In this document: positions 25,034 through 46,051 of the stretch, piece after piece
How the letters are laid out: each line of letters starts with the position of its first letter
Position numbering within the stretch: position 1 is the first letter of the stretch
NCBI GenBank assembly: GCA_019116805.1
Contig: DXAV01000041.1
Location: 1 to 64,000, forward strand
From: Candidatus Bacteroides merdavium
GTDB lineage: Bacteria > Bacteroidota > Bacteroidia > Bacteroidales > Bacteroidaceae
DNA length: 64,000 nucleotides
Direction of reading: 5' to 3'
Position numbers and translations under genes: made by a program
The notes under the pieces: generated by a model
Databases searched by the model: none
The model's input: only the letters and a program-made list of their open reading frames with translations
What the model was told of the DNA's origin: nothing

Positions 25034-25120
25034 GGTGTGAAGCCTTCACACCTCTTCACGCTTTTAGTGTGAAGGCGTCACATCCGTACTGTGAAGGTGT
25101 CACATTCTTACTGTGAAAGA
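25034..25120. repeat. 22-nt periodic array A (TGTGA/TCACA theme)
   Basis: Units begin TGTGAAGG at 25068 and 25090 and TGTGAAAG at 25112, an exact 22-nt period. Each full unit carries inverted arms TGTGA and TCACA. A perfect 19-nt palindrome (GGTGTGAAG-C-CTTCACACC) precedes them at 25034-25052. The array lies in the 446-nt gap between the susD terminator and the GH92 promoter; nothing else is seen in that gap except the 22-nt dispersed repeat. Confidence 0.7.
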
Positions 25121-35506: not shown

Positions 35507-35668
35507 ATGAAAAGAACATTTCAACCCTCTAACAGAAAGAGAAAAAACAAACACGGTTTCCGTGAGAGAATGGCTACAGCCAATGGCCGCAGAGTATTGG
35601 CAGCACGTCGTGCCAAAGGCCGCAAGAAACTGACAGTTTCTGACGAATACAACGGAGTGAAGGCATAA
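35507..35668 (+). CDS. rpmH: 50S ribosomal protein bL34
   Basis: 53 residues from the ATG at 35507; the tracked start at 35420 includes the promoter and is rejected. The sequence [20 protein letters not shown] and the following [22 protein letters not shown] are the hallmark of bL34, with the extended C-terminus seen in Bacteroidota. It has its own promoter and terminator. It is not next to rnpA or dnaA here. Confidence 0.98.
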
Positions 35669-35693
35669 GGCTATATCCTTGTAAAAGAAATAA

Positions 35694-35730
35694 AGCTCCG
35701 CAGATATCCCGGTATCTGCGGAGCTTTTCT
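35694..35730 (+). terminator. Intrinsic terminator of rpmH
   Basis: A 13-bp stem (AGCTCCGCAGATA 35694-35706 with TATCTGCGGAGCT 35713-35725) and a short loop are followed by a T-rich tail. Confidence 0.85.
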
Positions 35731-35827
35731 GTTTCTATATCCGTCTTTCGGGTGGGCTCATTCGGTTGCCAAAGGTGTCGTTCTTTTTGGGGGCTTCTCG
35801 CCTGTCCGATGAGGCTTTCCTCACGGC

Positions 35828-35937
35828 TTTCCCTCAGCCGGTGAAAACCTTTCCCCTTTAAAGGGAAAGTCTTTCCCTTTGAAAGGGAAGATCTTTCTCT
35901 CGGTGAGGGAAAACTTTTCCCACTTTGCGAGAAAGGG
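35828..35937. repeat. 22-nt periodic array B (TTTCCC/GGGAAA theme)
   Basis: Five consecutive units, all exactly 22 nt, start with TTTC at 35828, 35850, 35872, 35894 and 35916. Most carry inverted arms such as TTTCCC and GGGAAA or variants. A related half-unit (TGAGG-CTTT-CCTCA) precedes them. The array ends 23 nt from the 3' end of the DUF6078 gene. The rest of 35731-35960 shows nothing else. Confidence 0.85.
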
Positions 35938-35960
35938 GTAGAAACTCTTTCTGCTGATAA

Positions 35961-36410
35961 TCAAGACTCTGTGTCGTAGCGGTAAATGTACTCGTCGTAC
36001 ACCGGCTCTGCGTCGATGCCGCGTTCGAGGAAGAATTGTCGTATCTGTTCCTGCTGCCGGGGTGTTATCAGTCGCTCGCCGTGCTTGATGCGGTAGTAAG
36101 GATTCTTGCCGAAGTAATCGTAGATTTTCCGCTTGAGCCATACGGCGTCTTTGTAGCTGAAGGTCTGTAGCTGTGCCAGCAGTGACTCGATGCCGCGTGC
36201 GAAACGTTTCTTGTCGGCGGGGCTGAAGTGCGGGCAGTCTCGTCCGGCCAGGCCGCGCGACACGGCGGGCGAGAGGATGCGGATATAGGTGAGGCTGGAG
36301 GGCAGGCCTTCCATCAGGGCGTGGCGCAAGCATTGTGCGGCCAGGGGACAGTCGGCCTGCGTGCAGAATGCGTAATACTTGGACAGTTGGGTGTAATCAA
36401 AATCGAGCAT
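35961..36410 (-). CDS. DUF6078 family protein
   Basis: A 149-residue cytoplasmic protein. The layout matches the Bacteroides DUF6078 family as I recall it: an N-terminal Cys-rich part (CTQADCPLAAQCLRH), then GRDCPHF, a middle RFARGI segment and the C-terminal ERLITPRQQEQIRQFFLERG followed by DEYIYRYD. The spaced cysteines could bind a metal or Fe-S cluster, which is inference. The function is unknown. It is monocistronic, with array B directly after its stop. Confidence 0.8.
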   Translation of the reverse strand: MLDFDYTQLSKYYAFCTQADCPLAAQCLRHALMEGLPSSLTYIRILSPAVSRGLAGRDCPHFSPADKKRFARGIESLLAQLQTFSYKDAVWLKRKIYDYFGKNPYYRIKHGERLITPRQQEQIRQFFLERGIDAEPVYDEYIYRYDTES

Positions 36411-45857: not shown

Positions 45858-45864
45858 GGCCGGC

Positions 45865-46051
45865 TCCAATGTGGGTAGTTACGGCTCCCAAGTAGGTGTT
45901 TGGCGGGCGAATGTAGGTGTTTAGGCTGGGAAAAGCGGTCGTTTGTCCAGCTTAAATCATTGTTTTGTCCAGCTTAAAACGATGCTTTACCCAGCTTGGA
46001 CAAATGCTTTAAGCAGGTCAAATATTTCTTTTGGTGAAGCGAAAGTTTCAC
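45865..46051. repeat. 22-nt periodic array C (TTTGTCCAGCTTAA theme)
   Basis: Six units of exactly 22 nt start with TTT at 45920, 45942, 45964, 45986, 46008 and 46030. Two of them share TTTGTCCAGCTTAAA and a third has TTTACCCAGCTT. Upstream, two or three looser 21-22 nt units (GGCTCC.., GTAGGTGTTT..) extend the array towards the sigma gene stop. Confidence 0.82.

Follow-up and report, generated by a model that had tools for sequence, protein, structure and literature searches.

What keeps a tandem array at an exact period of 22 nt when its units are far from identical in sequence? The question is raised by a short palindromic array behind a gene of the DUF6078 family in Candidatus Bacteroides merdavium. 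The array lies in the window, the stretch of 64,000 nt that we analysed as a whole (contig DXAV01000041.1, positions 1 to 64,000).

The array and its period in the window and the genome

The initial annotation had described five exact 22-nt units, all opening with TTTC, at 35828-35937. Unit listing and a lag scan bore this out, with the units starting at 35828, 35850, 35872, 35894 and 35916, and the array proved slightly longer than first stated, at about 35823-35937. Within the 35828-35937 segment, self-identity reached 0.60 at lag 22 and 0.51 at lag 44, with most other lags at about 0.1-0.3, and Tandem Repeats Finder also returned a period of 22. The features of this locus are the following.

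35823..35937, no strand assigned: 22-nt-period array of five palindromic units (family C94), from the lag-22 analysis and unit listing
35935..35963, minus strand: leader from the DUF6078 stop codon to the C94 array (TGATTATCAGCAGAAAGAGTTTCTACCCC on the minus strand), from the alignment of dispersed copies and flank comparison
35961..36410, minus strand: DUF6078 gene (PF19555, 149 aa), the proposed array partner, from Pfam, the family alignment and the family-wide array linkage
35507..35668, plus strand: rpmH (ribosomal protein L34), convergent neighbour, context only, read from the sequence and the ORF list

The 29-nt leader, which joins the array to the DUF6078 stop codon, is conserved, and several dispersed copies of the array share it. 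The neighbouring rpmH has a terminator-like hairpin of its own at about 35693-35728.

When the window was scanned at lags 12-39, three tandem segments appeared at lag 22 (25065, 35843 and 45899) and none at any other lag; 20 Markov resamples of the window yielded no tandem segment at any lag. The arrays near 25065 and 45899 have the same period as the C94 array and unrelated sequences.

45899..46016, no strand assigned: second window array, CCAGCTTAAAGCA family, with about 30 matches here and 25 in the close relative G007
25065..25117, no strand assigned: third window array, TGTGAAGGCGTCACA family, with no known partner, from the lag-22 scan and repeat finding

A genome-wide comparison of lag 22 with its neighbours had been set beforehand as the test that could refute the periodicity. 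Run on 424 kb of this genome (G000), it placed lag 22 far above the neighbouring lags, with 22 segments compared with three each at lags 21, 23 and 24 and 0-1 at the rest of 16-31. All of these lag-22 arrays were intergenic and they comprised several unrelated sequences. G007 had 18 lag-22 arrays in 400 kb, and another genome, G021, had two. At about 50 arrays per Mb in this genome, they form a large class of intergenic repeats in common gut bacteria. For 40 arrays of G000 and G007, positions were compared with those of the predicted genes, and no array lay inside a gene. Convergent, divergent and co-directional gene pairs were all represented at these sites, although the siting classes are approximate, as the simple gene caller overlooked short genes such as rpmH. 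Siting at convergent genes or terminators was rejected as an explanation because all three gene orientations occur.

DUF6078 genes and the arrays behind them

The protein encoded next to the C94 array is a clear member of PF19555 (E 9e-39, 133.5 bits, gathering cut-off 27). The alignment of 33 DUF6078 members revealed four invariant cysteines and a C-terminal pattern like that of XRE-type helix-turn-helix (HTH) domains, pointing to a probable C-terminal HTH in a protein that probably binds a metal or an Fe-S cluster. The XRE-like HTH profile PF20432 gave a weak match in two of the 33 members (best E 0.028), and the WhiB profile scored 14.2 bits, below its gathering cut-off of 23.6 (E 0.065). 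The AlphaFold model, built from two sequences, was of low confidence. No conserved HUH motif was found in the alignment, and comparison with defence or phage families gave nothing significant. In the open-access literature, which leaves most subscription papers outside the search, DUF6078 was not mentioned, and a search of the same scope for such repeats in Bacteroides found none.

We gathered DUF6078 loci by protein similarity alone and sought an array within 350 nt downstream of the stop codon. A 22- or 23-nt array was present at 63 of the 67 distinct intact loci, compared with 55 of 600 ordinary predicted genes of two genomes (9%; p about 5e-50 for the difference). With the loci that are not intact included, 65 of 72 distinct loci had a downstream array, and the upstream score reached the same threshold at three of the 72. 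No locus showed an array at lags 18-20 or 25-27. The arrays had a median length of 94 nt and began, at the median, 34 nt from the stop codon. At the four remaining intact loci there were irregular inverted repeats only, or nothing at the threshold. The same downstream rule was found in Parabacteroides distasonis, Bacteroides finegoldii, the spirochaete Treponema saccharophilum and G416, a genome of another family. On present evidence, the linkage of DUF6078 to a phased palindromic array is firm. The initial annotation had placed its array after the DUF6078 gene, and rightly so; the generality of this arrangement, which is our main point, emerged only in the follow-up.

DUF6078 was present in 97 of the 121 sampled genomes of the genus, and a phylum-wide survey of 297 genomes found it in four. 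A scan of genome contigs found it in one relative, B. reticulotermitis, where it is chromosomal, and scans of viral contigs found no DUF6078. In Treponema saccharophilum, the gene and its 22-nt array are located on plasmid pTS1 (L176); their presence in a spirochaete suggests that the two were transferred horizontally as one. In the genome G056 both DUF6078 genes are broken (L283, L285), neither is followed by an array, and 100 kb of the genome had no 22-nt array. A single-protein search had overlooked these two broken genes, and a profile search recovered them.

The four DUF6078 paralogs of the genome studied here all have arrays that differ from one another. In a set of 63 gene-array pairs, the more similar two proteins were, the more similar their arrays tended to be (Spearman 0.36; Mantel test, p 0.001), in part through shared ancestry. 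The period, 22 or 23, follows the protein tree, with 4 changes against 9.4 in shuffles, a contrast that near-identical sequences inflate. One locus is syntenic between G000 and G007, with 94% identity in the upstream flank; its DUF6078 gene has diverged strongly and the two arrays are wholly different. Gene and array changed together there. Where the genes are intact, the cis arrays of these two species are 98% identical, compared with 86% and 92% for the noncoding flanks. One cis array differs between the two genomes by exactly one 22-nt unit; whole units are gained or lost.

Dispersed arrays and families without a DUF6078 partner

The arrays are not confined to the genes. The C94 family occurs at about seven further places in the same genome, and the arrays linked to the paralogs on contigs C25, C45 and C67 have about 6, 11 and 6 further dispersed sites, respectively. 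Three of these trans arrays are 84, 94 and 85% identical between G000 and G007, compared with 77, 86 and 82% for their flanks, a weaker and mixed signal in which the arrays appear only modestly more conserved than their surroundings. The presence of an array at the same place differs between close relatives.

Dispersed C94-family copies retain the leader found after the DUF6078 stop codon, and one of them retains a decayed DUF6078 tail. To judge from these sequences, the pattern looks like copying out from the 3' end of the DUF6078 gene. No target-site duplication and no linked copying enzyme of a known kind was found at the dispersed copies. In another genome, G099 (L213-L222), ten dispersed fragments of the DUF6078 C-terminus have varying 5' ends, and most are followed by the same array family; they are possibly truncated mobile copies. 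Three arrays of G099 (L214, L216 and L217) also have a near-identical IS-like element within or at the end of the array, with a transposase that is IS3-like by eye. REPs are a known target of IS elements (PMC1525189). A separate 22-nt repeat beginning with CCACCTATTCTAGAA lies at L044:2818-2866 and L061:12446-12514, between genes 99.6-100% identical in G000 and G007. This site, unlike the rest of both genomes, is probably a recently shared mobile element.

Other 22-nt families have no DUF6078 partner. The CCAGCTTAAAGCA array of the window is absent from the syntenic place in G007, and across 30 loci of its family (L318-L347) neither DUF6078 nor any recurring gene was found within 1.5 kb. At 45860-45930, another 22-nt repeat (TAGGTG...) precedes this array; some arrays are therefore composite. 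The GTACAA family (GTACAAAAGAAT arrays, L288-L317) occurs in G003, G042, G106, G067, G091 and others. Within this clade DUF6078 is absent from G003, G042, G067 and G091, and G106 holds only a sub-threshold trace. Six species share one GTACAA array at an orthologous position between genes, while the sequence around it is not conserved. In the genome G114 (L150-L153), the commonest family is that of CTCGCGAG/ACACTTGCAC, with seven arrays in 80 kb, and it matches none of the arrays at the four DUF6078 genes of that genome. The prediction that genomes without DUF6078 would have no 22-nt arrays failed in G003, G042 and G106. No other recurrent gene was found beside dispersed or orphan arrays. The orphan families may either have lost their partners or be unlinked from them, or belong to a different protein family with the same architecture.

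Geometry of the arrays, rival readings and known systems

For the array, the initial annotation had offered phased protein binding or a run of RNA hairpins. The geometry of the arrays speaks to both halves of this proposal. In the DUF6078-linked arrays, each unit has two dyad axes, of two kinds, and successive axes are separated by 11 or 12 nt. An RNA helix would favour G.U pairs on one strand. On the gene-sense strand of these arrays, dyad mismatches of the G.T type (103) were about as frequent as those of the A.C type (101), which argues that the symmetry belongs to the DNA rather than to RNA. That the arrays are terminators or 3'-UTR structures behind DUF6078 is therefore very improbable, despite their site behind the stop codon and the fact that both strands fold better than shuffles (z -3.5 and -4.2); both strands of a palindrome must fold well, dispersed arrays also lie between divergent genes, and Rfam gave no match for the array. 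Phased binding was the better supported half, with strand-symmetric dyads, half-sites alternating every 11 bp, conserved cis arrays and gain or loss of whole units. From the dyads we infer that protomers sit at intervals of 11 bp, roughly one helical turn, with their orientation alternating. A period of 22 bp near two helical turns, together with whole-unit gain and loss, could also come from slippage during replication, or from DNA curvature of a generic kind that serves gyrase or a nucleoid protein, without any cognate protein. We give this only a slim chance: slippage predicts neither one period across unrelated sequences nor linkage to one gene family, and A-tract curvature was rejected as a shared cause since the arrays span 23-57% G+C with no common A-tract pattern.

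The dispersal of the arrays invites explanations of another kind. Elements of the REP/RAYT type, moved by a Y1 (HUH) transposase, would account for palindromic repeats that are scattered between genes, are specific to a family and have their cognate gene next to them, as REPtrons do, and Y1 transposases are associated with REP repeats elsewhere (PMC2817692, PMC8266576). However, Y1_Tnp (PF01797) was absent from G000 and from eight of the nine relatives searched, neither an array nor an array motif lies within 1.5 kb of the two Y1_Tnp genes of G114, and DUF6078 is without the conserved HUH motif, which leaves this explanation with hardly any probability. Less remote, and still unlikely, is a parasitic repeat in which the DUF6078 3' end and the array are mobile in a REP- or SINE-like manner, the dispersed arrays are without host function and DUF6078 aids or tolerates their spread. 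The leader on dispersed copies, the decayed tail, the G099 fragments and the presence or absence of arrays in close relatives are all in keeping with such a repeat; the strong conservation of the cis arrays and of the GTACAA array in six species is not, and neither a linked transposase of a known kind nor a target-site duplication was seen. It is also conceivable, but distinctly improbable, that another protein reads the arrays and that DUF6078 is a frequent passenger or a regulator of that system. The 22-nt families that occur in genomes without DUF6078 and near no recurrent gene would fit this, yet the gene family is linked to arrays at nearly all intact loci, and the DUF6078 sequence predicts both array sequence and period.

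We favour, with a probability of roughly 60%, the reading that DUF6078 and its array form a gene-array pair in which the protein binds its cognate arrays in cis and in trans. DUF6078 would be a small, probably metal- or Fe-S-containing HTH DNA-binding protein, and the array behind the gene and the dispersed copies of the same family would be its cognate binding platforms. Half-sites of about 11 bp in alternating orientation would seat protomers along one face of the DNA with two kinds of two-fold contact, and these contacts would fix the repeat at 22 (or 23) bp while the sequence changes along with each protein. Several such pairs would occur in one genome, four in the present case. They might serve as regulatory or chromosome-organising nucleoprotein sites, and their spread might in part be due to copying of the gene's 3' end. 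Binding, cooperativity and cellular role are what we infer from the linkage at 63 of 67 loci, the four distinct arrays dispersed in trans, the protein-array correlation and the joint change of gene and array, as well as from the symmetric 11-bp dyads, cis conservation, array loss in G056, the four cysteines and the weak HTH and WhiB matches. Against binding stand the orphan 22-nt families, including those in genomes without DUF6078, the four intact loci without a regular array at the threshold, the weak HTH profiles (E 0.03), the poor structure model, shared ancestry and the modest conservation in trans.

More tentatively, and at somewhat less than even odds, the pairs may represent an undescribed class: fast-diversifying Cys4-HTH proteins with their own 22-bp arrays in cis and trans, forming orthogonal pairs, with protomers polymerising on alternating 11-bp half-sites and with the 3' end and array spreading non-autonomously without a transposase of a known kind. 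The pairing lacks what defines REP/RAYT elements, the nearest known kind; the case for novelty would be weaker if DUF6078 were an ordinary regulator with many operators. If true, this reading would offer a way into a gene family without an assigned role and account for a large class of intergenic repeats. Fixed spacing with protein and site letters changing together would be a natural experiment in protein-DNA specificity, and the family could supply orthogonal DNA-binding pairs. It would also bear on the origin of dispersed palindromes without a RAYT transposase.

XRE-type repressors are transcription factors with clustered operators. DUF6078 resembles them in its probable HTH and in helically phased palindromic sites, several side by side, and differs in having its sites behind the gene rather than at the promoter, in long regular arrays and in paralogs whose sites have unrelated letters. 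The gain and loss of whole 22-nt units between close relatives is reminiscent of variable-number tandem repeats, although units of the DUF6078 type are diverged and palindromic, and unrelated sequences in much of the genus have this same period. WhiB-like Fe-S regulators offer only a lead: they too are small proteins with four invariant cysteines, and there is a weak profile match, but the match is far below the family cut-off and the Fe-S cofactor is putative here. The closest likeness is to REP/BIME elements with TnpA-REP (RAYT), which share many short, family-specific intergenic palindromes, a cognate gene alongside, and a protein and repeat that appear to have co-evolved (PMC2817692, PMC8266576). 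In REPtrons, inverted REPs stand on either side of the gene (PMC2817692); DUF6078 genes have their arrays on a single side, with a period fixed at 22 or 23 bp, and do not encode an HUH/Y1 transposase. Like REPtrons, all four paralogs of this genome have palindromes of the same family both at the gene and dispersed between other genes.
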